64,000 bases of DNA, from NCBI GenBank assembly GCA_016794365.1, contig JAEUKB010000079.1, positions 124,001-188,000 of the forward strand, written 5' to 3'. The DNA comes from Myxococcales bacterium. GTDB taxonomy: Bacteria; Myxococcota_A; Polyangia; Palsa-1104; JAEUJZ01. The notes under the pieces were generated by a model that worked only from the letters and a program-made list of their open reading frames with translations, was not told the origin of the DNA and made no database searches. Of this stretch, positions 1,596 to 59,121 are shown piece after piece. A program made the position numbers and the translations under genes. Within the stretch, counting starts at the first letter, position 1. The number at the start of each line of letters is the position of its first letter.

Positions 1596-3716
1596 GTGAT
1601 CTCTATCGGCTCCTCTGTAGGCAACTATAGAGTGGTCTCTAAGCTCGGCGCGGGAGCCATGGCCACCGTCTTTTTGGCGGAGCACCCGCGTATTAATAAA
1701 AAGGTCGCGATCAAGGTCATCAACCAAGACCTGGCCGCGAGCAAAGAAATGGTCAGCCGCTTCATGACGGAAGCACGAGCGGCGAGCCAGATCGGCCACG
1801 ACCACGTCGTCGATATCCTCGATTTTGGCCAGAGCCCCGAGGGCGAGAACTTCATGATCATGGAGTATCTCGAAGGGCAGACGATCTCGTCGCGGATTCG
1901 GGCAGCGGGGCAACTGGATGTCATGACGACGCTGCACATCGTGATGCAGATCGTCGATGCGCTACAAGCCGCCCACGCAAGAGGCGTGATCCACCGAGAT
2001 CTCAAGCCGGACAACATCTATCTGATTCGACGAGCGGGGACGGGCGATTACGTCAAGATCCTCGACTTTGGACTGGCGAAGCTGCTGTCGGGCACCGAGG
2101 GTCAGAACCACAAGACCTCGTCGGGATCGGTGCTGGGAACGCCGCACTACATGGCCCCCGAGCAGTGCGAAGGCAAGACCACGATCGACGGACGAGCGGA
2201 TCTCTACAGCGTCGGTTGCATCATGTATCAGATGCTGACCGGCGAGCTGCCCTTTCCCGGCGAAGGCTTTGCCGAGGTGCTGATCAAACATCTGTCGGAG
2301 CCTCCGCCGCTTTTGCGTGCGCGCGTTCCACAGTGTCCCGCGTCGGTCGAAAAGCTGATCCTGCACTGCCTGGCCAAAAGTCGCGATCATCGCTTTCAGA
2401 CGGCAGAAGAGCTGGCTTGGGCGATTCACGATCCAGAGTCGTGGTCGCTCCAGTTTGGCGACGATCTGCTGCGCATTGTGGGTCCGCTACCCGGTCGAGC
2501 CATGGCGATGCTGCCGCCGCAGATGCCGACGATGCATGCGAATGGCGTTCCGCCCGTGCTCACGGCAGCGGCGCAGCCCATCTCGCCGGTTTCGACGGTC
2601 AATCTGCCACCGCCGGTCAGCAGTCCAGCAGGCTTGGGCGCTGTCCCAAGTCCGTCGTCAGCAGGAGCCGTTTCCGCCGCACACCCGGTGCTACCCAATG
2701 CCGCAGCAACGCTTGCACCGACGGCGCTGCCGCCATCAGGACTCGCTGCACAACCCGGACAATCAGCGGTGCGACCAAGCCTGCCAGTGGTGATGCCACC
2801 GTCTGCACTCGATATTCCAGTCGTCGCTGGAGAGTCCGCCCAAGTCGCCGAGCTTCCGTCTGATGCCAGTCGCGCTGCACCACAAATGGCGACGCTGATC
2901 AGCGATCTGTCGTCGGCATCGCTGTCGGCACTGCTGCGACCACCGGGAAGCCAGCCGAGCCCAGCGGCAAACGCCTCGCGACCACCGTCGGTTCCGCCAT
3001 CGGGTCCAAGCGCTCCAAGCAGCGACGGACTTGTGCCGGAAGAGCTGGCACCGAGCGATGTCACCCCAGCCGCAGGACTTTCGGCCCAGCACAAGCCCGC
3101 AGGCGCCGCGTCCCAGCCAGGCATCGTACCGGGTCCAGCGAGCGGTCTGCATCCCGCAGCCCTGCCGCCACCGAGTCCAGCTTCGACGCCCAATGCCTCG
3201 CCAAGCCCGCTCGATAAGCTCAAGGCGCTGCCGCCGGTTCAGCGCATTTTGGCCCTGCCCGACAAGCAACGAACGATGGTCCTCGGTGGAATCGGTGGAG
3301 GGCTTGCGCTGCTGATGATCATCTTGGCGATCGTCATCGCGCTGCCGGGATCGGTGCGCATCGAGATCTCGTCTATACCGCCAGCGGCAGAGGTTGTCCG
3401 CGACGGAAAAGTGCTCGGAAAGACGCCGCTTCAGCTCAAGCTGTCGCAAGGGGAAAAAGCGCGGCTTGTGCTTCGCAAAGAAGGCTTCGAGGAAGTCGAG
3501 CGCGTGGTCTCGGCGTCCAATCAGACTGCGCTGAGCGTCGAGCTATCCGCCGAGACGACGACTCCGCAGCCGGACAAGCCAGCGACGGATCACACCAAGC
3601 CGGTTGAAACCACCAAGCCGGTCGAAGCCCCCAAGTCCGATCCGAGCAAAGCGCAGACGAAGGTGCCCGCGAAGAACGTCAAGAAGGGTCCGAAGAAAAA
3701 GCCAGCGATCTTCTAG
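1596..3716 (+). CDS. Membrane-anchored Ser/Thr protein kinase with PEGA domain
   Basis: A 706-residue Hanks-type kinase. Residues about 11-280 form the kinase domain: glycine loop GAGAMATV (18-25), catalytic Lys40 in VAIK, HRDLKPDN with Asp135 as catalytic base, DFG 157-159 and APE 187-189, so all key residues are present. A long Pro/Ala/Ser-rich linker (about 300-555) leads to one transmembrane helix (about 562-585), then a PEGA domain (IPPAAEVVRDGKVLGKTPL) and a Lys-rich tail. With the kinase in the cytoplasm, the PEGA domain would lie in the periplasm and may sense or bind the envelope. The start is a GTG at 1596. The substrate is unknown; such kinases are numerous in Myxococcota. Confidence 0.93.
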   Translation: MISIGSSVGNYRVVSKLGAGAMATVFLAEHPRINKKVAIKVINQDLAASKEMVSRFMTEARAASQIGHDHVVDILDFGQSPEGENFMIMEYLEGQTISSRIRAAGQLDVMTTLHIVMQIVDALQAAHARGVIHRDLKPDNIYLIRRAGTGDYVKILDFGLAKLLSGTEGQNHKTSSGSVLGTPHYMAPEQCEGKTTIDGRADLYSVGCIMYQMLTGELPFPGEGFAEVLIKHLSEPPPLLRARVPQCPASVEKLILHCLAKSRDHRFQTAEELAWAIHDPESWSLQFGDDLLRIVGPLPGRAMAMLPPQMPTMHANGVPPVLTAAAQPISPVSTVNLPPPVSSPAGLGAVPSPSSAGAVSAAHPVLPNAAATLAPTALPPSGLAAQPGQSAVRPSLPVVMPPSALDIPVVAGESAQVAELPSDASRAAPQMATLISDLSSASLSALLRPPGSQPSPAANASRPPSVPPSGPSAPSSDGLVPEELAPSDVTPAAGLSAQHKPAGAASQPGIVPGPASGLHPAALPPPSPASTPNASPSPLDKLKALPPVQRILALPDKQRTMVLGGIGGGLALLMIILAIVIALPGSVRIEISSIPPAAEVVRDGKVLGKTPLQLKLSQGEKARLVLRKEGFEEVERVVSASNQTALSVELSAETTTPQPDKPATDHTKPVETTKPVEAPKSDPSKAQTKVPAKNVKKGPKKKPAIF

Positions 3717-4585: not shown

Positions 4586-6187
4586 CTATGGCAGCGAAAC
4601 CCCGTTTTCTTTGCAGACCGACACCAGCTTCTTGCGATCTGTCGCAGCGACGCGATGAAAGGTTCCTTGCGCGGAAAAGCTACCCATTTTGCAGTGCGCA
4701 AACGTCATCTGTCGATACGCGCGTGCCGTCGGTTGGGTGAAGGTGGTCTGGTTCGCTAGCTCGATCGCTTTGGGAAAGTCTCCGTCGCGCAGCAGCTTTT
4801 CAACCCGATCGAGCTGATCTTTGATCGCAGGCGGTTCGCTGGCAGAAGTCGGAACGCTCGTCGCATGACGCGGACTGGAGCCGGTCGCTGGCTTGTCCGT
4901 TCCACTTGGCTTGTCCGTTCCGCTTGGCTTGTTCGGTCCGGTGCTGGCTGTCGCACTTGGCGTCGCTGGCTGAGCGCTCGGATTGATTGCCATGTTCGTG
5001 CCACTTGTCCCTGGTTCTGTCGTTTTTTCCGTCACAGCCGCATCAGGAACAGCCGCCGCACCAGCTTGCGCCGACGTGGCCACAAGCTTCGGTGTCGTCA
5101 CAGCTTGCGCACCAGCCTGCGAGCGCAGCTTCACCGACACCAGCACCGCACCGCTCACCGCCGCCACCGCCGCAAGCATCGTCAGTCCCAGCATCGGCAA
5201 CAGCGAGCGCTTCTGCATCGCCACCGTCATATCGCCTGCTGTCGTCGGACGAACCGAGCCTTTGCTGAGCGCGCGCGCATCCCGACAGTAGCCTTCACAG
5301 TCGGCCAGCGCCCGTTCCAGCGAGCCAATGTCGGGATAGCGCTGCGTCGGTTCTTTTTCGAGCAGTCGCATCACAATCCGCTGGAGCGGCTCCGGCACTT
5401 CCCGAGGCAGCGGCGGCGGCGGCTTGGTCAGATGACTCACCAGCACGCCCGTCACGGTATCGCTCACAAACGGCACCGTTCCCGTCAGCAGCTCATAGAG
5501 CACCACACCGACGGCATACTGATCGGCTCGCGCATCAACCTTGCTGCCACCTGCTTGCTCGGGTGCCATGTACGCTGGCGTTCCGATCACTGCGCCCGTC
5601 GCTGTCAGCGAAGCTCCGTTTTCGTCCCCAAGCTGCTTGGCAATCCCGAAGTCGAGCACCTTCAGATAGATCTGTCCCGTCGGAGAATAGCGCTGAAGCC
5701 GAATGTTCTGCGGCTTGATATCACGGTGAACGATGCCGTTTCGGTGCGCTTCCTCGAGCGCCGCTGAAAGCTGACGCACGATCCCGATCGCTCGCGCGGG
5801 CGCCATCGGTCCTTCGAGCGTCATCACATCGGTCAGCTCTTTTCCATCGACGAACTCCATCACCAAAAACGGCGTGCCTTCGTCGATGCCAAAGTCGAGC
5901 ACCTGCGCAATCCCCGGATGAAGCAGCTTGCTCAGCACCTGCGCTTCTCGCTGAAAGCGATCGTGCGAGTCTTTCGTCACCAAGATGTCGGAACGAATCA
6001 TCTTGATCGCGACGGTCTTGCCCAGCCCAAGCTGGATGCCGCGAAACACGATTCCCATCGCTCCTTGTCCAAGCTGCGCCTCGATTCGGTACTGCCCTTT
6101 GAGGACTTTTCCCACCATCGAGCCCGGCTGCGATCCACTGCGAACGCCCGGCTCGGGGAGCGTCTCACGCTGAGAGTCTGCTGGCAT
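4586..6187 (-). CDS. Membrane-anchored Ser/Thr protein kinase
   Basis: A 533-residue Hanks-type kinase. The kinase domain spans about 33-300, with glycine loop GQGAMGIV, Lys62 in VAIK, HRDIKPQN with Asp156, DFG 179-181 and APEQ near 209, so it looks active. One transmembrane helix follows near 333-354. The outer part is low-complexity Ala/Thr/Pro-rich sequence containing a short tandem repeat of KPSGTD, then a roughly 75-residue Cys-containing tail that looks like a truncated TPR-like segment (LRDGDFPKAIELANQTTF). A second in-frame Met at residue 24 is possible as a start. It diverges from the secreted protein gene at 6265. Confidence 0.92.
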   Translation of the reverse strand: MPADSQRETLPEPGVRSGSQPGSMVGKVLKGQYRIEAQLGQGAMGIVFRGIQLGLGKTVAIKMIRSDILVTKDSHDRFQREAQVLSKLLHPGIAQVLDFGIDEGTPFLVMEFVDGKELTDVMTLEGPMAPARAIGIVRQLSAALEEAHRNGIVHRDIKPQNIRLQRYSPTGQIYLKVLDFGIAKQLGDENGASLTATGAVIGTPAYMAPEQAGGSKVDARADQYAVGVVLYELLTGTVPFVSDTVTGVLVSHLTKPPPPLPREVPEPLQRIVMRLLEKEPTQRYPDIGSLERALADCEGYCRDARALSKGSVRPTTAGDMTVAMQKRSLLPMLGLTMLAAVAAVSGAVLVSVKLRSQAGAQAVTTPKLVATSAQAGAAAVPDAAVTEKTTEPGTSGTNMAINPSAQPATPSATASTGPNKPSGTDKPSGTDKPATGSSPRHATSVPTSASEPPAIKDQLDRVEKLLRDGDFPKAIELANQTTFTQPTARAYRQMTFAHCKMGSFSAQGTFHRVAATDRKKLVSVCKENGVSLP

Positions 6188-47603: not shown

Positions 47604-50600
47604 TCAGCCAAGACACAGACACAGCGCGTACCACAGCGGCTGCTTGGCTGACTTGGTGTACAGCACCGTCAGACGACGCAGCGGACCTGCCGAGCGCACC
47701 GAGATGCCCAGCTCTGCGACGGATACTTCCAGCACACTGCGTCCGGTCGCGCTTTCCTGACTGGCATAGCCAATGTGAGCGACGGACGATCGACGGTGTC
47801 CAAGATCGAACTGCCCTTGCTTTTCCGTCGCGAGCAGCGTCAGACAGTTGAGTCGTGTGCTCGGCTCGCGGACATCGTGATACAGGCTCGGACGATCGCG
47901 GCCTCGGCCTGGCTCGGTCAGCTCAAGCTGGATGGTTTCGCCACTGAGGAGCAGCGACAGCTCGGCGGGCAGCGCATCTGGCGGCTCGACGAGATGAAGC
48001 GGCAACACCGACGGCTGCTGTCCAGCCAAAAGCGGCAAGGTCCGCAGGCTGATCTCTGCGCCGCTCGGCAGACGCTGACGCAGCGACTCTCCCGACGACG
48101 GAACCATTAGCTGGGACGAACGCGGCAGCGCCGTATCGGGAACCTTGGCCGCAGACGAGCTTCCGACGAGCGCGATCAGCTCTTCAGCACGCAGTCGCTG
48201 TGCAGGATCGGGACGCAGCGCAGCCAAGATCGCGTTTTCAATGTGCGGAGGAACGCCTCGCTGCGGCGGCAAGCGCGGAACTCCCCGTCGAGAACGCAGC
48301 GCTTGGGTCAGCACTTGCAGATCGCCACCGAGCATCTCGTAGGCCAGCACTCCGACGGAAAATACATCGCTTTTGTGGCTCTGTGGTGCGCCGCTATAGC
48401 ACTCGGGGGCCAGGTACGGATCCAGCAGCAGCGGCCTTTCCATTCCCGGCGGAAACAGCGGCTCAGCGAGGATCAGCTCCAGACAGAAGTCGAGCAGCAC
48501 CGGCGCATCGGTCGCAAGACACAGGCCAATGCTCGACGGACGAATCGCGCCGTGAACGAAGGACGGATCGCGCCGATTCAGCTCGGTCAGCGACGCAAAC
48601 AAGCGCTCAACCAGGCTTAGGCGCTCTGCCGTCGAGAGCTGTCCGATGGTGGGCAGACGACGTTCCCACAGCGGCATGACCACAAAGCTAGCGCCGCTTC
48701 CGTCGGGATCACTGGCATCTCGGACATCGACCGTTCCGACGGTGATCATCGGCAAGAGGAACTTGTCATCGGCCTTGGGCGCGCGCGCATCCACAAACGC
48801 AGCGAGCTTGGACTTTGCCGTCGCAGACAGCGGCGCAAGCTTGGGACCACGACCACAGACGGCGACCGCGACGTGACCGCCTCGTAAGCTGCCTGCATCG
48901 CGGGATTTCTGTTCGCCCGGTCCGTCACTGAGCAGCTCTGCTTGATAGTACAGCTTGGGAAACTGTGAATCCCTTTTGGGCCCCGAGCCAATGAAGCGCA
49001 GCAGTCGATAGCGATCACCCAGCACCGAGCCAGCCAGGCGGTGCGGCTCGTCGGCCAGCGGTGAGAGCAGCGCCAGGTTGGTCCGTCCCGAGCCTGGGCT
49101 TCGTCGCGGATCGACGGTCCACAGCGGAACGCCATCGCTGGGACGAGCCACTTGCGGCAGCTCTCCCGAGCGAAAGACCCGATCTTGCGACTTGGATGTG
49201 CTGGGCAGTGCGTCAGACGATCGACCCGAGGCTGGACGCGCTCCGGCAGGACCAAATGACTCGTCGGCCAGCGCTTCTTCATCGACAAACTCTGACGAGC
49301 GATCGTCGCGTTTACGGCCATACAGCGCTTTGGGCACTTCGTGGAGCAGCGACGGTGGCGCGGCTTGCAGGTGAATCCCGCGCTCTAGCAAAAAGCGACC
49401 GATCGCACCGATGCTGGAAAATCGCCCGCCCGCTTCTTCGACAACCTTATCGAGGTCTTGGCACAGCTCCGCCGCGCTGGCGTAGCGTTCCTGAAGAGGC
49501 CGCGCGAGCGCTTTGTGAACCACCGACGCAAGCAGCGGCGAGGCCTGCGGACACACCTTGTGCAGCGGTGTAATGTCGCCGCGCACAATGGCGTAGAAGG
49601 TCGCTGCGGTGTCATCTCGTGCGAACAGGGGCTGACCGCTACACATCTCGTACAAGACCACACCCAGGGCAAACACGTCCGAGCGCGCATCGAGCGGCTG
49701 AAGCATGATCTGCTCGGGCGACATGTACGCTGGCTTACCTTGTAAACCTTCTTCTTTGCGCAGCAGTCGGGTGTCGGCGCGAGCGACTCCGAAGTCGATG
49801 ACCTTGACCAGACCTTCGGGCAGGACCATCAGGTTCGACGGACTGACATCGCGGTGTACGACGTTGAGCAGCCGTCCGTTGCTGTCACGAAGCTGGTGCG
49901 CAGCATGCAGTCCGGCACACGACTGAGCAATGATGGCGGCAGCCAGGTCGGGAGGCATCGTCTCTCCTCGACGGAGAAACTGACCAATCAAGCTGGCGAC
50001 GGTGACACCTCGCAGGTATTCCATCGCCAAGAACAGCACGCCGTCTTGCTCACCGACATCGAAGATCTTGACGACGTTGTGATGATTGATCTCGGACGCG
50101 ATGCGCGCTTCGTCGAGAAACATCGCAGAGGCATCGACGATTTCAAACATCTCGGGCTGAATCAGCTTGAGCGCGACGGGACGAAACAGACCGCCAAGGC
50201 CCGTCTGACGAGCCAAAAAGACCTCGGCCATGCCACCGCCGCCGAGTCGTCCAGTGAGCAGATAGCGACCAAACGGCAGCGCGGTACCGATGCCAATCAG
50301 ACAGCGCGGCGAAGTCGCTGGTGGCCCGAGAGAGACTTCGACGGTGCCAGTCGCTGCAATCGCAAGCTGCGTCACCTTCTGTCCCGTCGATAAGTCGTAC
50401 ACTCCAGCGGTAGAGCCCTGATCGGAAAGTAGATAGCTGTCGTCGATCTGACGGGAAATCACGGCATGCTGACGAGAGACAACCGCGTCGGGAATCAGCA
50501 CATCTGCCGAGGGATGACGACCGATACGAACCTCGGCTGCGTCGAAGAATAGCTGCTGCTCGCCGGCCCTTCCGCCGCTGAGGATGCGGACTTCAAGAAC

Positions 50601-50618
50601 CGTCTTCGCCTTGCTCAT
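47604..50618 (-). CDS. FHA-domain Ser/Thr kinase fused to a pseudokinase-like domain
   Basis: A 1004-residue cytoplasmic signalling protein without membrane segments. FHA domain about 8-105 (RIGRHPSADVLI, SRQHAVI), which binds phosphothreonine. Kinase 1 about 118-395: GGGGMAEV loop, Lys151, HRDVSPSN (Asp257), DFG 275-277, MSPEQ near 299; it looks active. After a Ser/Arg/Pro linker a second kinase-like domain runs about 534-830: GDRYRLLRFIGSG, but HGA replaces HRD (689-691) and DFC replaces DFG (710-712), while LAPE and SDVFSVGVLAYEM are kept, so it is probably a pseudokinase. A last 175 residues are beta-rich and unassigned. It diverges from the second giant TPR gene. Confidence 0.92.
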   Translation of the reverse strand: MSKAKTVLEVRILSGGRAGEQQLFFDAAEVRIGRHPSADVLIPDAVVSRQHAVISRQIDDSYLLSDQGSTAGVYDLSTGQKVTQLAIAATGTVEVSLGPPATSPRCLIGIGTALPFGRYLLTGRLGGGGMAEVFLARQTGLGGLFRPVALKLIQPEMFEIVDASAMFLDEARIASEINHHNVVKIFDVGEQDGVLFLAMEYLRGVTVASLIGQFLRRGETMPPDLAAAIIAQSCAGLHAAHQLRDSNGRLLNVVHRDVSPSNLMVLPEGLVKVIDFGVARADTRLLRKEEGLQGKPAYMSPEQIMLQPLDARSDVFALGVVLYEMCSGQPLFARDDTAATFYAIVRGDITPLHKVCPQASPLLASVVHKALARPLQERYASAAELCQDLDKVVEEAGGRFSSIGAIGRFLLERGIHLQAAPPSLLHEVPKALYGRKRDDRSSEFVDEEALADESFGPAGARPASGRSSDALPSTSKSQDRVFRSGELPQVARPSDGVPLWTVDPRRSPGSGRTNLALLSPLADEPHRLAGSVLGDRYRLLRFIGSGPKRDSQFPKLYYQAELLSDGPGEQKSRDAGSLRGGHVAVAVCGRGPKLAPLSATAKSKLAAFVDARAPKADDKFLLPMITVGTVDVRDASDPDGSGASFVVMPLWERRLPTIGQLSTAERLSLVERLFASLTELNRRDPSFVHGAIRPSSIGLCLATDAPVLLDFCLELILAEPLFPPGMERPLLLDPYLAPECYSGAPQSHKSDVFSVGVLAYEMLGGDLQVLTQALRSRRGVPRLPPQRGVPPHIENAILAALRPDPAQRLRAEELIALVGSSSAAKVPDTALPRSSQLMVPSSGESLRQRLPSGAEISLRTLPLLAGQQPSVLPLHLVEPPDALPAELSLLLSGETIQLELTEPGRGRDRPSLYHDVREPSTRLNCLTLLATEKQGQFDLGHRRSSVAHIGYASQESATGRSVLEVSVAELGISVRSAGPLRRLTVLYTKSAKQPLWYALCLCLG

Positions 50619-50889: not shown

Positions 50890-53800
50890 ATGGCCGAACG
50901 AAAAGATCTGCCCGCATCCCCAATTTCCGACGCTGAGGCGCTGCTTACTCGTGCCAAAAACCAGCGCGGAGTGGAAGCCGCCGAAACGCTACGTCGCGCC
51001 GCCGAGAAGTTCCGTGCGCATGGCGACGTGGAACAAGCGTTTACGTCCTATGAACGAGCGCTGGCTGAGCTGGCGGATCAGATTGGCTCTCCGCCGGTGG
51101 CCAAGCTGGGCGCGTCGCTGGAGTTCGAGCTGGGCAAGCTGTGCGAAGAAGACCTGGGCCGGTTTGAGCAAGCGCTGCTGCACTATCAGCAGGCGTTTAA
51201 GCTGCGACCGGACTTTTTGGAACCTCTTCGTCGCGGACGCATCATTTATCAGTCGCTCGGGGACATGGACATGGTGGCGCGGCTGATTGAGCTGCACCTG
51301 GCCAATCTCGTCGCGGGCGAGGCCCAGCAAGGCGTCGAGCTGGCGCTGGAGCTTGGGCACCTGAAGCTGCGACTGCATGATCCAGCGGGTGCCGTCGAAG
51401 TGCTGCGTAGCGCGCTGCGGATGCACAACGAGCTGAGTGAAGACACGGAAGTGCCCGAGCAGCTCTTATCGACGCTGGCTGAGTCGTATATGTCGCCGGA
51501 CTATCAGCCGGGCATCAGCGAAAAAGAACAGGCGCGACGCAACGCCAGCGACATCTTTTTGGGCCTGGCCAAGCGGTTTCTCGACGAAGAGCTGCTGGGT
51601 ATTTTGGAAAAGCTGCGGCAAGCGGAAGAAGAAGAAGGAAACTCTTCGCCGCTGTCCGTCGAGAGTTTGCTGAAGAGCAAAGACAAGCCGCTCGGGGAAC
51701 AAGACAAAAAAGCGCTGAGCTTTTTGAAGCGAGCGCTCGAAGCGGACATTCGCAACGTCACGGCGGCGGTGCTGGTCGAAGCGCTGTACCTGCGGACTCC
51801 TTCCGCGACGGGAATTCCGGAGCTGATCAAGCTGTATCGCAGCGGGGCGCGGGTGACTCGTCGGGGACCGAAGCTGCTGAAGCTGTACGAACAGACGGGA
51901 AGTCCAGACTATCAAGCGGTGGCGGATGCGTGCCGAGCGGGCCTCGACGCGGTCAGCTCGATGGATGAGTGGCACGAGACGCGGCAAGTGCTGGTCGATG
52001 TGCTGAAAAAAGCCAGCGATCAGCTGGGGCTCGGTCAGCTTCGGGAAGAAGACGCGCTCGAAGCGGCGCTGCCCGAAGAGCGCGCCGAGCTGATGATGGA
52101 AGCCGCCGACTATTACAACCGAGGCGGTGACACCGAGCGCTACATTGCGTGCCTAAAGCAAGCATTTCACGAGCTGCCGCTGCACAGCGAAGCGTTTCGG
52201 AAGCTGTCGGACTATTACAAGAGCCGTCGCGACTTCATCGGGCTGGCGGTGATCCAAGAAAACCGCATGGCTGCGCAGTTCGAGACGGCGCGACTCGATC
52301 TACAGAGCTATGCCAAGCAGCTCGAAGATCTGGGTGAGCTGTACGAAAAGAAGCTGCAAGACGTGGTGTCAGCGGCGGCGATTTGGCGACGGATTGATGA
52401 GCTTCTTCCGTCGCTGCGCTCGCAGAGTGAGCGAAAGCGTCTGGGCCAGCGTCTGACGCGAACCGAGCTACAGATCAACGAGCTGATCGTCGAGCTGGAG
52501 CGAATGGAGCCCGACGATGTGACGCGCGTGGAATATCTGCGACGGCTCGGGCAGCTGTATCGCGAGATTCACGAGCCAAAGCATGCAGCGACGGTGCTCG
52601 AGCAGCTGTTGCAGCTTACGCCGGGTGACTTGCCGTCGATCAAAGTGCTGATCGAGCTGGCCGAGCAGAGCGGTGACACATCACAGCAGCTTGAGCTTTT
52701 GCGACAGCAAGCGGGCCTGGCCAATGACAAGGCGGAGCGGCTCGGGATTTTGCGACGGATGATGACGCTGTGTGATCAGCGGCTGCTGCGTCGCGATGAA
52801 CAGTTCGACGGACAAGACAGCATCGAGATGATGGTCTGGGTCTGTCGCAGCCTGCTCGCGGAGCTGCCGTCAGATCGCGATGCGCTCAAGCGCCTGGCGG
52901 ATGCGCTTCAGCTCGTCGGAAGCAAGAACGAGCTGCTGGAAGTGCTGGAGTCGTATCTCAAGGTTGCACCGACGCCGCGTGAAAAGCTGACGCTGCATCG
53001 ACGGATTGCCAAGATTGCGGAAGACTGTGGGGATCTGACGCGCTCGGTGTCGCATCTGGAGCGCGCGGTACGCATCTGTCCGCCCGGTCCCGAAGCAGAA
53101 GAAGTGCTGTGCGAGCTGGCGCGCGTCTACGGCGGACAAGGTCGGCTGGAGCTGGCTGTATCGACGCTGGAGCTGGTGCAAAAGCAGAGCAGTCGCAGCG
53201 GTCCCGAGCTTCATCGGCTGCTCGGACGACTGACGCTGCAAGCGGACGATCCGCAGCTTCTCGATAAGAGCCTGCGTGCGTTCCGGGATGTGCTTGTGCG
53301 TCTTCCGACGGACAGCGAGGCGCTGGCAGCGCTGCAAAAGATTCATCGAACACGCGGCGAGTGGAAAGAGCTGGAGCAGGTTCTCCGCAAGCAGCTGGAG
53401 CCGATGGACCCGCCGCTGCCACCGAGAGAGCGTCTGTCGCTGGCTCTCGATCTGGCGGAAGTGCTCGGGCAGCACATGGGAAGTCCTCGTCAGGCGGCAG
53501 AGCTGCTGGAAAAAGTGCAAGCCGAGACGCCCGTGGTGGATCTGCGTGTTCACCGTCACTTGCGCGGTCTGTACGAAGAGCTGGGCGACGTGCGAGCGGC
53601 GGTTTCGTGTGAAGAGCGCGAGCTACTACTGACCGAAGATCCGGTGGCTCGTATCGAGCGAGCGATCGAGATTGCGCGTCTGTGGCAGTCTCGCGGCAAA
53701 GATCCCGGTCGCGCGTATCTGTCGTATGAGCGCGCGGTGCGGATGGCACCTGAGCTGCCTCCCGATGGCGTCGAGAGAGCAGCGGTTCGTCGTCTGATCA

Positions 53801-56800
53801 CGCAAGCGCTCGAAGCGATGAGCCAGATGTCGGCGCAGCGCGGACGCTGGGACGATGTCGTCGGGATTGGACAGCAGCGACTGAACATTGCCGTCGAGCA
53901 AGATGAAGCGCTGCAAGCTGCGGCGATCCTCGTCGAGATGGCGCAAGTCTACGAGGAAAAGCTGGGTCAGCCGATCGATGGCTTCGCGCTGCGCATTCAA
54001 GCGTTTGAGCTGGCACCGGACCTGATGTCGATCGAGCAGCTCGCCAGCATCGCGGAAAAGTACGGTCAGTGGAAGCCGCTCAGCGATCTGCATGTTCAGC
54101 GCGTCGAGAGAGCGCTGGCTGCCAAGATCGATGTGCCGCTCGATTCTGCGCTGGCTGCGTCGGAGATTTTGGAACAGAAGCTCGCCGATCCGATTCAAGC
54201 GTTCCGTCTGCTGAAAAAATCCCTGCCGATTACGGTCAGTGCAGCGATGGCAGCGACGGACAAGCGCAGTCCACAAGGACGTCTTCTGTCGGAAATGGAT
54301 CGCGTCGTGCGCGCGCTGCACAAAAAAGGCGGCGAACAGAGCAGCGAGCTGGCGCTGGAATCGGTGTCTTTGGCGCGCGAGCTGGCACACTTGTATCACT
54401 CGCTCGTCGATGAGCTGGTGCGCATGACCGATGCTGGCATCGAAGAAACAGCGCTGCGCATTCACAAGCTGCTCGGGGAATCGGCGAAGGTGCGAGAGCA
54501 AGTGCTGTTCGATCCGGCGGGCGCGCTGGGTGAACGACTTCATGCATTTACCGTCGGTGGAGAGCGCGATCACAGCGAAGACTTGGTGGCGGATGAAGTG
54601 TTCGCAGAGACGATCGCAGAGATTCATCGTCTGGCACTGCTCAGCGGTCAGATCAAAGAAGCAGTCGCCGTCGATATGCGTCGGCAAGATCGTGCGCAGA
54701 GCGATCAGCGACGGCAGCAAGTGGCGTGTGAGAGCGCGGGCTGGCTCGACGACTTTGGCAACGATCCGCAGCGGGCGCTCAAAGCGTGCATCAAAGCGCT
54801 GGGTCTGTGTAGCGAAGGCAGCGACGCACAAGCCGAGATGCGCGGACGCTTGTTCCGCATCGGTCAGAAGCTTGGGCTCCTCGCGTGGGACGAAGTGGTG
54901 CGGGCCGAGCGAGCGCTGGTGGCAAGTCAGCCGAAGCTGCTCCGTCAGAGAATGCTGTATCTTGCGTCGCTGTGGCAGCAAGGTGCGTCGGATTCGGTGC
55001 GCGCGATCGATGCGGCGGGTCAAGCGCTGCGGATGACCTATTTCCCAGCGGGCGTTCCGACGAGCAGCAAGTCCGCGCAGCCTCTGTCAGAGCTTCTGAC
55101 ACCACAGCTTACGCCGGAGCTTGTCGCTGAGCAGCAGCACATTCGCAGCGTCATCGACGCAATCTTGCGAGCGGCGCAAGGGGAAGCCGAGCCAGCGGCG
55201 AAGCTCGTGACGGTGCTCGACAACCTGGCCAATCAGCTCACGGAAGCGGGCGCACCGCAGTGGGCAGCCAAGGTGATGATCGACGCGGCGCAGGCGGACG
55301 AAAAGCGCGGACGCTTCGGTCAGGCCGAGCGACGGTATCAAGAAGCGCTCAAGCAGAGCGAGGTTGCCGACGAAGCGATGTCGGGTCTAGAGCGCGTCTA
55401 TCGGCAACAGCGACGGCTGGCGGATCTGGCGACGCTGCTCGAAAAGCGACGTGCGCTGCTCAGCGACACCGCGCTGCTCAAGCTGCTCATCGAGCTTGCC
55501 GAGGTCTATCGCGAGATCAACAAGTATCAGCTCGCGCTTAACGCGCTTCAGCAGGCGGTGGCCATTGATGACAGCGACGCGGGACCACACCTGTCGATGG
55601 CCAAGCTGTTCGAGGCGCAGAAGTCGTTTACGCGAGCCATCGAGTCGTATCGCAGCGGTGCGCAGCGCTCGCTGTCGGCGGTGGAGTCAGCCAAGGCGCT
55701 GCTCGTAGCGGCGGATCTGCTCGAGCGCAAGCTCAATGAGTCCGACGAAGCGCTGACGCTATCGCTGCAAGCGCTGCGCAAGACGCTCGGCGCGCAAGGT
55801 CTTCGGCTGCAAAACGGAGAGACGATTCCCACAGGTGATCCGCTGCGCGAACAGCGCGATGCAGCCTGGAACACCGTCGAGCGACTGCTGACCAAGCTTC
55901 AGCGCCAAGACGAAATCGACGGACTTGTGACGGAGCGGCTGGCGGTGACAACCAGCGCGCTGTCTGACGAACGACAAGCACTGCTTCAGCGTCAGTACGA
56001 GCTATGCAAGCAGAAGCTGCAAACGCCCAGTGAAACGACGCCACGCGACGGAGAAGAACCCTCGCAAGGCACGACAGAGCTGCGCGACAAGCTGCTTGGA
56101 CTACTCGAAGAGCTGAGCCAGCTTCGACCGAGCGACGACGCACTGCTCGCGGAGCAGCAGAGCCTTCTGCTTGGCAAGCAAGAGCTGGCGAAGGCCCGCG
56201 CGATTGCCGCCAAGCGCCTACAGCTGCTGGAACATTCCGACGGAGAATCGACGAAGCGATCCGAGCTGGCGCTGCACGTCGCGCGACTCGATATCGAGCT
56301 GGGACGATTTCCCGAGGCAGAAGCAGCGCTCGAACAGCTTCTTCGGGATACGCCAGGCTCGGCAGAGGCGGTCAAGGCGCTGGTCGATCTGCATCAGCGC
56401 AACGGCAATCACACTGGGCTCGTCGCTGCACTTCAGCGTCTGTCGTCTCAGCAAAGCGATCTGGAAGCAGCGGTCGCAGCACTTCGTCAGGCCGCGCAGA
56501 TCACGCTCGCAGCACAAGAAGATCTCGACGGAGCCAAGCGACTTCTTCACGAAGCGCTGACGAGAGTTGATGCAGCTCCGACGGTGACTCCGGCCCAGAA
56601 AGCGCTGGTTCGACGGGCGCTTGGTAACGTGCTGGTGCCGCTGTTTGAGCTGGCGCAGCGCGAAGGTCGCGACGACGAAGCACAGTCTCTGGCGCAGCGA
56701 GCGATCCACGAAGCAGAGCTTGTCGGAAGTCGCGCTGCCGAGCTGCAAGTTCACCTGGGCCACAAGGCGCTGTCCGAAGGAAAGACCAACGAAGCGATTC

Positions 56801-59121
56801 GCTTCTACGACGCAGCGCTGGCAGCATCACCGGGACTGCTGGAACCGACGCTGTCACTACTGGAGCTTCTGTCGTCGAGCGGCGATCATGCACGGATCGA
56901 TCAGCTCATCGAGTCAGCTCTTACGGCAGCGGTGACGACCAACTCGCTGCTGCCGGACATCGAAAAAGCGCGTCTGCTGCGAACCCAAGCGCAAGCGCGT
57001 CAGGTGCTGGGACATCTCGACGGAACTCTGACGGCGCTCAAAGAAGCCGAGCGACTGGTGCCCGGTACGCTGTCGGACAAGCTGTGGCTCGGAGAGACAG
57101 CGTTTGCGCAGCAAGACTTCGAGACGGCGCTTCAGCACCTGGGCGCGCTGATCCAGCTGATCGAGCAAAAAGATGCGCTTCCGACGCTGCTCACGCTCGA
57201 AAAGCTCAGCGATTCGCTCGATGCGGCGGGTCAAGCGGCGCAGGCGCTCGGTAAGCTCGACGAAGCGCGCACGCTGTGGCAAGCGGTCTTGCAGCTTGTG
57301 CCAGAACATCGCGCAGCGACGGAGCACTATCTGGATCTGCTGCTGCTTGGAAAAGATCCGCAGGATGCAGAGCAAGCGCTGACGATGCTGATCCAGCGCG
57401 CCAGCCAAGCAGCCAGCGTCGGACAAACCCAAGCTGCACGACGAGACTATCAGCGCGCAGCAACCCTAGCCGCGAGCCAGCTTGGGGAAAGTCTGCGCGC
57501 GCAGGGACTGCTAAAAGAAGCGCTCGCGCTGCTGCCGCCGCTTGGGGAAGACAGTGACGACGCACTGCGTCATGAATGGAGCACGCTGCTCGCGTCGCTG
57601 TACGACAGCGCAGAGCAGCTTGGCGAGCTGTCCGATGCGCGCGGTTATGCCGAGCGCTTGGCCGAGCTGGCCGAGACGAGCAAAGGTCAGAGCGCCTGGC
57701 ACAAGCGCGCCTCTCAGTGTGCGCTGCGAGGCGGAGACAGCGCGGGAGCCAAGAACCTGCTGCTATCGGCCCTTCACAAGACCCCGGCGCAGCTTGGTCT
57801 GATTGGCGAATACCTAGAGCTTGCCAGCGACGAAGAAGCGAGTGAAAAGCTACCGCAGCTTCTGCACAGCGCGGGCGCAACACAGAGCAGCGCGACGACG
57901 CCGCGTGGACCCGAGTGGAACAGCCAGCTCAAGGATCTGTGGACACGCGCAGCGACGATTCACAGCAAAGTCGGTGCTGGTGACTTGGCTGCCGAAGCGT
58001 ACGAGCGCGCTCTGTCGGTGCTGCCCGATCTCGATCCCGTCGAAGCGCTTAGCCTGCGTCGCGCGATTCTCGATGTGCTGCCCGAGGGTGAGCTGGATCG
58101 CGCACGCGGACACTTGCATGCGCTGCTTTCGGCTTCGCCCAAAGACACCGCGCTGCTCGGGAAGCTTCAGTCGGTGGAAGAGCGCGCGGGCAACAAAGGT
58201 GCGTCGTGGCGACTTCAGCAGCTTCTGCATCTGTACGATGACAGCCTGCCGGTTCCGCCTCCGCCGTCGCTGCCGCCCAAAGATGTCAAGCTCGACGATG
58301 GCGAACATGCCAAGCTGGCCGATTCCGACGCACGCGCGATTGCCGAGCTACTGGCCGCGCTGTGGGAAGGCGTGTATGCGCTCAAGGCTCCGACGCTGGA
58401 TGCGCTGGGCGTGCAAGGCACCGATCGACTGCAAGGCAACGAGACATCTGCCGACGAGCTGGCTCGGGCCTTTGCGCTGAGCAGTCGGGTGCTCGGAAAT
58501 CAGCGCGCCGGTCTGTATCGGCCCGCTGGTCACACGCTGGCGCAGCCTCGGATCCTTGCAAAGCCCCCGACGGCAGTGATTGCGTCCCCACAGCTTGCTA
58601 AGCGTCCCGTCGGTGAGCTACTGTTCCTGGTCGCGCGCTCCGTCGAAGGTCTGCGGCCCGAGTACATCCTTCCGCTGTCGATGCCCGCGTCGGAGCTGGC
58701 CAAGCTGGGTCAGCTTGCGGTGAAAGCGTTCGGTCCGCAAAAGACGCCAAAGCTTCCCGACGATGTCTCGACGTGGAAACGCGAGCTACCGTATCGAGCG
58801 AGCAAGCGTCTCCAGGATCTGCTGCGCGATCAGGCCGAGCTAGATGCCTCGGCACACGGTCATCGCGTCGCAATTCGGCGCGCACTTCAGCGAGCAGCGC
58901 TGCTCGTGTCGGGCGATCTGCTCGCGGCGCGCAGCGTACTGTTTGGCATCGACGTGCCAGCCTCGCAAGACCCGAGCAGCGCACAAGGTGGCTATTATCT
59001 GCGACTTGGCGAAGGAGAGCTGTCCGCGCAAGCCGAAGCCGAAGCCGATCTCGCCGATCTGTGCGCGTTCTTTATCGCTCCGCACAACGCCGCGCTGTTT
59101 GATCGGCTCCATCCTCGTTAG
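50890..59121 (+). CDS. Giant tetratricopeptide-repeat protein (2743 residues)
   Basis: The second very long TPR protein: tandem helical repeats of the RLGQLYREIHEPKHAATVLE type, then LIKLYRSGARV and AEVYREINKYQLALNALQQA, from the start to about residue 2450. The repeats are more varied than in the 22-34 kb protein, with a spaced Asp/Ala pattern. The last 250 residues are not TPR: VARSVEGLRPEYILPLSM, a Trp/Lys-rich segment and a Ala/Glu-rich end, an unassigned domain. No signal peptide or membrane helix. It diverges from the FHA kinase across 271 bases that must carry both promoters, so it may be a scaffold or substrate of that kinase. A GTG at 50881 would add three residues. Confidence 0.9.
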   Translation: MAERKDLPASPISDAEALLTRAKNQRGVEAAETLRRAAEKFRAHGDVEQAFTSYERALAELADQIGSPPVAKLGASLEFELGKLCEEDLGRFEQALLHYQQAFKLRPDFLEPLRRGRIIYQSLGDMDMVARLIELHLANLVAGEAQQGVELALELGHLKLRLHDPAGAVEVLRSALRMHNELSEDTEVPEQLLSTLAESYMSPDYQPGISEKEQARRNASDIFLGLAKRFLDEELLGILEKLRQAEEEEGNSSPLSVESLLKSKDKPLGEQDKKALSFLKRALEADIRNVTAAVLVEALYLRTPSATGIPELIKLYRSGARVTRRGPKLLKLYEQTGSPDYQAVADACRAGLDAVSSMDEWHETRQVLVDVLKKASDQLGLGQLREEDALEAALPEERAELMMEAADYYNRGGDTERYIACLKQAFHELPLHSEAFRKLSDYYKSRRDFIGLAVIQENRMAAQFETARLDLQSYAKQLEDLGELYEKKLQDVVSAAAIWRRIDELLPSLRSQSERKRLGQRLTRTELQINELIVELERMEPDDVTRVEYLRRLGQLYREIHEPKHAATVLEQLLQLTPGDLPSIKVLIELAEQSGDTSQQLELLRQQAGLANDKAERLGILRRMMTLCDQRLLRRDEQFDGQDSIEMMVWVCRSLLAELPSDRDALKRLADALQLVGSKNELLEVLESYLKVAPTPREKLTLHRRIAKIAEDCGDLTRSVSHLERAVRICPPGPEAEEVLCELARVYGGQGRLELAVSTLELVQKQSSRSGPELHRLLGRLTLQADDPQLLDKSLRAFRDVLVRLPTDSEALAALQKIHRTRGEWKELEQVLRKQLEPMDPPLPPRERLSLALDLAEVLGQHMGSPRQAAELLEKVQAETPVVDLRVHRHLRGLYEELGDVRAAVSCEERELLLTEDPVARIERAIEIARLWQSRGKDPGRAYLSYERAVRMAPELPPDGVERAAVRRLITQALEAMSQMSAQRGRWDDVVGIGQQRLNIAVEQDEALQAAAILVEMAQVYEEKLGQPIDGFALRIQAFELAPDLMSIEQLASIAEKYGQWKPLSDLHVQRVERALAAKIDVPLDSALAASEILEQKLADPIQAFRLLKKSLPITVSAAMAATDKRSPQGRLLSEMDRVVRALHKKGGEQSSELALESVSLARELAHLYHSLVDELVRMTDAGIEETALRIHKLLGESAKVREQVLFDPAGALGERLHAFTVGGERDHSEDLVADEVFAETIAEIHRLALLSGQIKEAVAVDMRRQDRAQSDQRRQQVACESAGWLDDFGNDPQRALKACIKALGLCSEGSDAQAEMRGRLFRIGQKLGLLAWDEVVRAERALVASQPKLLRQRMLYLASLWQQGASDSVRAIDAAGQALRMTYFPAGVPTSSKSAQPLSELLTPQLTPELVAEQQHIRSVIDAILRAAQGEAEPAAKLVTVLDNLANQLTEAGAPQWAAKVMIDAAQADEKRGRFGQAERRYQEALKQSEVADEAMSGLERVYRQQRRLADLATLLEKRRALLSDTALLKLLIELAEVYREINKYQLALNALQQAVAIDDSDAGPHLSMAKLFEAQKSFTRAIESYRSGAQRSLSAVESAKALLVAADLLERKLNESDEALTLSLQALRKTLGAQGLRLQNGETIPTGDPLREQRDAAWNTVERLLTKLQRQDEIDGLVTERLAVTTSALSDERQALLQRQYELCKQKLQTPSETTPRDGEEPSQGTTELRDKLLGLLEELSQLRPSDDALLAEQQSLLLGKQELAKARAIAAKRLQLLEHSDGESTKRSELALHVARLDIELGRFPEAEAALEQLLRDTPGSAEAVKALVDLHQRNGNHTGLVAALQRLSSQQSDLEAAVAALRQAAQITLAAQEDLDGAKRLLHEALTRVDAAPTVTPAQKALVRRALGNVLVPLFELAQREGRDDEAQSLAQRAIHEAELVGSRAAELQVHLGHKALSEGKTNEAIRFYDAALAASPGLLEPTLSLLELLSSSGDHARIDQLIESALTAAVTTNSLLPDIEKARLLRTQAQARQVLGHLDGTLTALKEAERLVPGTLSDKLWLGETAFAQQDFETALQHLGALIQLIEQKDALPTLLTLEKLSDSLDAAGQAAQALGKLDEARTLWQAVLQLVPEHRAATEHYLDLLLLGKDPQDAEQALTMLIQRASQAASVGQTQAARRDYQRAATLAASQLGESLRAQGLLKEALALLPPLGEDSDDALRHEWSTLLASLYDSAEQLGELSDARGYAERLAELAETSKGQSAWHKRASQCALRGGDSAGAKNLLLSALHKTPAQLGLIGEYLELASDEEASEKLPQLLHSAGATQSSATTPRGPEWNSQLKDLWTRAATIHSKVGAGDLAAEAYERALSVLPDLDPVEALSLRRAILDVLPEGELDRARGHLHALLSASPKDTALLGKLQSVEERAGNKGASWRLQQLLHLYDDSLPVPPPPSLPPKDVKLDDGEHAKLADSDARAIAELLAALWEGVYALKAPTLDALGVQGTDRLQGNETSADELARAFALSSRVLGNQRAGLYRPAGHTLAQPRILAKPPTAVIASPQLAKRPVGELLFLVARSVEGLRPEYILPLSMPASELAKLGQLAVKAFGPQKTPKLPDDVSTWKRELPYRASKRLQDLLRDQAELDASAHGHRVAIRRALQRAALLVSGDLLAARSVLFGIDVPASQDPSSAQGGYYLRLGEGELSAQAEAEADLADLCAFFIAPHNAALFDRLHPR

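Follow-up and report, generated by a model that had tools for sequence, protein, structure and literature searches.

A small family of Myxococcota proteins that combine a predicted active PknB-like kinase with a conserved, apparently inactivated second kinase domain

Main finding

A protein of 1004 amino acids, encoded in a 64,000-nucleotide stretch of the genome of an uncultured Myxococcales bacterium (hereinafter, the window), joins on one chain an FHA domain, a PknB-type Ser/Thr kinase domain (K1), a disordered linker, a second kinase-like domain (D2) and a beta-rich C-terminal domain (CTD) of about 150 amino acids (Table 1). The sequence of D2 and its homologs bears the signature of a conserved pseudokinase, in which the fold is retained and the chemistry is gone. 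A small family of relatives shows the same layout and, given this conservation, the dead half of the protein is probably a regulatory or docking part and not debris. A Pfam search with the whole protein detected the FHA domain and the Pkinase domain, the latter in two stretches. None of the 19-residue windows resembles a strong membrane helix (the best mean hydropathy, 1.78, lies within D2), and the protein is therefore most likely soluble and cytoplasmic.

Table 1. Domains and diagnostic motifs of the kinase-pseudokinase protein, with coordinates in the window
Feature	Residues	Coordinates	Strand	Basis or remark
Whole gene, FHA - active kinase - pseudokinase - CTD	1004 aa	47604..50618	(-)	ORF with ATG start
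FHA domain	~5-108	50295..50606	(-)	Pfam FHA, E 1.6e-10
Ser/Thr kinase domain K1, predicted active	112-395	49434..50285	(-)	Pkinase, E 4.8e-42; PknB match; all catalytic residues
K1 C-terminal tail	396-430	49329..49433	(-)	Alignment; also in single-kinase CTD proteins
Linker	431-527	49038..49328	(-)	Predicted disordered
Predicted pseudokinase domain D2	528-835	48114..49037	(-)	Profile, Pfam, AlphaFold2/Foldseek; catalytic residues lost
VAIK lysine position in D2	Ala586	48861..48863	(-)	A/V/M/H/R in nine homologs, never Lys
HRD position in D2	HGA 689-691	48546..48554	(-)	Asp absent in 9/9 homologs
DFG position in D2	DFC 710-712	48483..48491	(-)	Asp in 5/9 homologs, Gly in 0/9
Beta-rich CTD	853-1004	47607..48062	(-)	Strands in model; unnamed

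A complete and a disrupted kinase domain

The closest relative of K1 in the PDB is PknB (E 3.5e-39 by sequence; TM 0.87 by target). The initial annotation, made from the DNA sequence alone, had credited the first kinase with every catalytic residue, and the full set can indeed be read from the sequence, namely, the G-loop (125-133), the VALK lysine (K151), the glutamate of helix alphaC (E170), HRD (255-257), N262, DFG (275-277) and SPE (300-302), with K151, E170, D257, N262 and D275 invariant across the family. Judging from these motifs, K1 is a Hanks-type (PknB-like) Ser/Thr kinase with a complete active site and is predicted to be active. The P+1 loop has the sequence GKPAY in place of GT, and in the alignment of the family there is no conserved threonine in the activation loop. 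In one paralog (L026), the DFG motif of K1 is replaced by DLG.

In Pfam, the second domain is a weak kinase match: when D2 was searched alone, it matched PK_Tyr_Ser-Thr at 24.0 bits, against a cut-off of 23.1, and Pkinase at E 1.4e-5, below the cut-off. A profile of nine D2 and CTD sequences retrieved PknA and PknB from among the PDB chains at E-values from 1.7e-16 to 5e-15, in alignments that begin close to strand beta3 and reach helix alphaI. The AlphaFold2 model of D2, built from a seven-sequence alignment, has a mean pLDDT of 79 and displays strands and helices in the kinase order; in a Foldseek search with this model, the top 50 matches were all kinases (best E 2.3e-10, TM up to 0.72 by target). 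Thus, by profile and by model, D2 is predicted to be a real kinase fold, with matches far beyond chance. A chance match or a misread frame was considered and is rejected by the profile and fold matches. The assignment of the second region to the kinase fold in the initial annotation, which had suggested structural modelling as a check, accordingly stands, the model having yielded this fold and not another one. The motifs quoted there are all in place as well (GDRYRLL at 534, the HGA and DFC triplets, APE at 737-739 and SDVFSVGV at 750).

The disruption of the active site in D2 goes beyond the HRD and DFG replacements listed initially, because the VAIK lysine is lost, too. Over the nine homologs, the lysine position is occupied by A, A, A, V, M, H, R, A and V; the HRD triplet by HGA, HGS, HGA, HGG, HGN, HGG, HGQ, HGA and CSG, with a VHG motif in eight of the nine; and the DFG triplet by DFC in three sequences and by GLS, DFH, GHS, GIH, GVS and DFL in the rest, so that its aspartate is lost in four. 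The G-loop consensus is absent in all nine homologs. The residues that shape the fold are, by comparison, well preserved, the structural aspartate of helix alphaF and the arginine of helix alphaI in every homolog and APE in seven. With neither the VAIK lysine nor the HRD aspartate, D2 cannot, on the evidence of its sequence, operate by the canonical phosphotransfer mechanism, and the original claim of a dead second kinase domain is supported across the family. Because the DFG aspartate is kept in five of the nine homologs, D2 may, nevertheless, bind nucleotide or metal weakly.

The accessory domains

The CTD, which did not figure in the initial annotation and was recognized in the follow-up analysis, shows beta strands in the AlphaFold2 model and has no relatives in Pfam or in the PDB by sequence. 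It does occur in proteins of other Polyangia families, directly behind single active kinases (L036, L038-L041, L044, L075 and L076), which identifies it as a putative kinase accessory domain that is found also without D2. In the tree, several of these single kinases fall together with K1 in a group (SH-aLRT 99) to which other kinases belong, too, and they share the C-terminal tail of K1, the K1 profile extending into the tail of L036 and L038-L040. The CTD appears, then, to be an unnamed accessory domain of kinases that is distributed over several Polyangia families.

The FHA domain contains the GR and SRQH motifs (G33-R34 and S48-R49-Q50-H51), including Arg34, Ser48 and His51, and in the xNG motif alanine replaces the usual asparagine (STAG 69-72). 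In the paralog L026 (2996-5836; on G003:C191), the arginine, serine and histidine of the phosphothreonine site are all lost, and in L056, the homolog from another class of Myxococcota, the FHA domain is missing.

Distribution and evolution of the family

The K1-D2-CTD layout was found in nine proteins from six genomes, which represent one uncultured family of Polyangia and a single genome of another class of the phylum. The search with the D2-CTD profile covered 318 genomes of the class Polyangia and 57 genomes of that other class, and the nine members, all of which are included in the model, scored at least 485 bits, with a clear gap to the next best score of 113. The named records among the members are metagenome assemblies of uncultured Myxococcales, and several of the genomes are fragmentary. 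Orthologs with 90% and 80% identity and with the same neighbors on both sides are present in two congeneric genomes; one of these genomes (G002) encodes two more paralogs, another genome (G003) encodes two paralogs, and the genome from the other class (G336) encodes an 831-aa version. The hypothesis of a single-species oddity or pseudogene was rejected given the orthologs with conserved synteny and the paralogs in other genera. The one homolog in the genome G004, of the same family of Polyangia, has a disrupted K1 frame (L057, 4797-7817; on G004:C53): K1 is distributed over different reading frames, with the break near HRD, which could be an assembly error or a sign of a decaying copy.

Across four genera and two classes, the reading frame of D2 is kept, and the order of the domains is always K1-D2-CTD. 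In the phylogenetic tree, D2 forms a single clade, on long branches, separate from K1 and from the other kinases (SH-aLRT 100), which points to one lasting pseudokinase lineage and not to repeated decay. This separate placement does not support an origin of D2 by recent intragenic duplication of K1, although the branches are long. Among the congeneric orthologs, dN/dS values (NG86) are 0.04-0.055 for K1, 0.16-0.19 for FHA, 0.18-0.22 for D2 and 0.10-0.21 for the CTD. K1 is under strong purifying selection, and D2, with a value three to five times that of K1 and similar to those of FHA and the CTD, is constrained as well, at the level of the accessory parts. This is the pattern that one would expect if the parts around a fixed catalyst were specific to their partners. 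Since the CTD elsewhere sits directly behind single active kinases, D2 resembles an inserted module, and the simplest history would be that an older kinase-tail-CTD protein gained D2; given the long branches of D2, we infer this history only with caution.

Possible functions of the inactivated domain

The interpretation that we favor, while regarding its chances as even, is that of an FHA-containing cytoplasmic Ser/Thr kinase with a noncatalytic regulatory or adaptor C-terminal half that consists of D2 and the CTD. Under this scheme, K1 would be the catalyst, and D2 with the CTD would form a docking platform, tethered by the flexible linker, that binds a partner, a substrate or a ligand and either brings it to K1 or passes its state to K1. 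In those members that keep the binding residues, the FHA domain could add a phosphothreonine-dependent contact; any control of D2 over K1 would be exerted by contact, not by catalysis. This reading is suggested by the loss of the catalytic residues of D2 in nine homologs in which the fold residues remain, and by the coherence of D2 as one clade that is subject to purifying selection and matches the kinase fold, followed by a kinase accessory domain and preceded by a flexible linker. Noncatalytic bacterial kinase domains that act as recruiters have precedents in the pseudokinase tail of MviN, with FhaA, and in EssB/YukC (PMC12599244). Against it, we count the neighborhood, which gives no pathway, the DFG aspartate in five homologs, and the pTM of 0.44 of the full-length model.

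The initial annotation compared the layout with that of JAKs, with an active domain under the control of a dead one, and this comparison holds only loosely. An active and a dead kinase domain do share one chain, invariably so in this family, and pseudokinase control in cis is known from the eukaryotic JAK/TYK2 (cited in PMC12599244), so D2 may regulate K1, this being one among several options. A JAK-like mechanism in which D2 docks on K1 and inhibits or activates it, K1 being released once the CTD or FHA has bound a signal, nevertheless appears doubtful to us. The order of the domains is reversed, and between them lies a disordered linker of about 90 residues, with pLDDT below 50 over residues 435-520 of the full-length model; in this model the relative positions of the domains are not fixed, and no contact between K1 and D2 is predicted with confidence. 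Nor does the contrast between a nearly invariant K1 and a diverging D2 hint at an interface that is tightly co-conserved. We are similarly hesitant about a variant of this idea, namely, a kinase-pseudokinase chain that arose in bacteria independently of JAKs and plant tandem kinases, and in which D2 allosterically switches K1 via a ligand or partner bound to the hitherto undescribed CTD. A further proposal from the same source, that FHA binds phosphothreonine made by K1 on the same chain, in an autoregulatory loop, would be compatible with D2 being either an adaptor or an in-cis regulator, and the three binding residues and the shared chain speak for it; we consider it unlikely, in view of the alanine in the xNG motif. 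Together with the degenerate FHA domain of L026, its absence from L056 and the lack of a family-wide threonine in the activation loop of K1, this replacement implies that such self-reading, a putative function at best, cannot be common to the whole family.

Two other explanations take D2 out of the regulatory role. If it were what is left of a second kinase, drifting and tolerated as a spacer in front of the CTD, one would expect the faster change compared to K1 and the long branches that are indeed observed, and the disrupted K1 of the G004 homolog could be seen in the same light; yet the purifying selection on D2 (dN/dS of about 0.2), the fold-determining residues in all nine homologs and the intact D2 frame across four genera and two classes make this quite improbable. 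Alternatively, D2 might bind nucleotide with an altered activity, after the manner of SelO (AMPylation) or SidJ (glutamylation), for which one could invoke the DFG aspartate in five homologs and the VHG motif in eight, SelO having an HG-type catalytic loop (table in PMC12599244). However, SelO and SidJ retain the lysine and the DFG aspartate (PMC12599244), whereas in D2 the lysine and the G-loop consensus are missing throughout and the aspartate, too, is lost in four homologs, so that we assign a very low probability to this explanation.

Relation to known kinases and pseudokinases

JAKs carry their pseudokinase (JH2) in front of the kinase (JH1). Like JAK/TYK2, the protein described here combines an active with a dead kinase domain in a single chain; it differs in the reversed order, the Ser/Thr and not Tyr type, the lack of FERM and SH2 domains and the long disordered linker; there is no sign of common descent of the two arrangements, and the comparison holds only loosely. 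FHA-containing kinases of the Hanks/PknB type, such as Pseudomonas aeruginosa PpkA (PMC6213207) and myxobacterial kinases, likewise carry FHA and an active kinase on one chain, but here a dead second kinase fold and the unnamed CTD come after the kinase. In Mycobacterium tuberculosis, MviN (ActPs3), in which all three catalytic motifs are lost, is a bacterial pseudokinase tied, through FhaA, to recognition of phosphothreonine by FHA (PMC12599244); there is, however, no active kinase on the MviN chain, a separate kinase, PknB, phosphorylating it and a separate FHA protein binding it. The plant protein WTK1/Yr15 (PMC6170490) is a tandem kinase and pseudokinase on one chain, without FHA or CTD, and the resemblance is one of layout only.

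Of the described families of bacterial Ser/Thr kinases, seven, among them those named ActPs1-3, GLW, CP1, DYD and DLHK, are composed entirely or for the most part of pseudokinases, few of them with a known function (PMC12599244). The 1004-aa protein has neither of the companion domains given for CP1 (COG3899) and ActPs3 (MviN). In the open-access literature, we found no tandem kinase-pseudokinase proteins of prokaryotes. Little work has been done on bacterial pseudokinases, and a recent review of the families (PMC12599244) mentions neither tandem or dual kinases nor a combination of active and dead kinase domains in a single chain. With its intact kinase, its second kinase dead in every member and the CTD common to all, this small and clean family allows a direct test of whether in-cis control by a pseudokinase arose in bacteria as well.

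Two kinase domains on a chain are not in themselves new here, since the same genome encodes a tandem active-active kinase; the dead second domain and the CTD are the unusual part. That protein (L055, G000:C5:41000-45500; 923 aa) contains two complete kinase domains, with HRDVSPPN and HRDLKPEN; its 1068-aa homolog (L078, in G099) comes from another family, and the two form a separate family of tandem kinases. These proteins, like the one described here, have two kinase folds per chain, but both domains possess HRD and DFG, and there is no CTD.

Genomic context

The neighbors of the kinase-pseudokinase gene encode MetK, TetR, ACT and DUF711 proteins and a giant TPR protein. Because this set is housekeeping-like and the gene order is kept only within the genus, the neighborhood points to no pathway. 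A role as a defense-system kinase was considered and rejected: the PADLOC and MAD6 matches are kinase-domain matches, and the neighbors are not defense genes. The divergent neighbor, at 50893-59121 (+) of the window, codes for the TPR-repeat protein of 2740 aa, with 92% and 82% identity in the congeneric genomes; about 260 bp of intergenic DNA lie between it and the kinase-pseudokinase gene. Two more Hanks-type kinase domains are encoded in the window, at 1626-2408 (+) in a 714-aa frame and at 5336-6091 (-) in a 535-aa frame, and in the source genome over 150 kinase matches were counted across 6.7 Mb.
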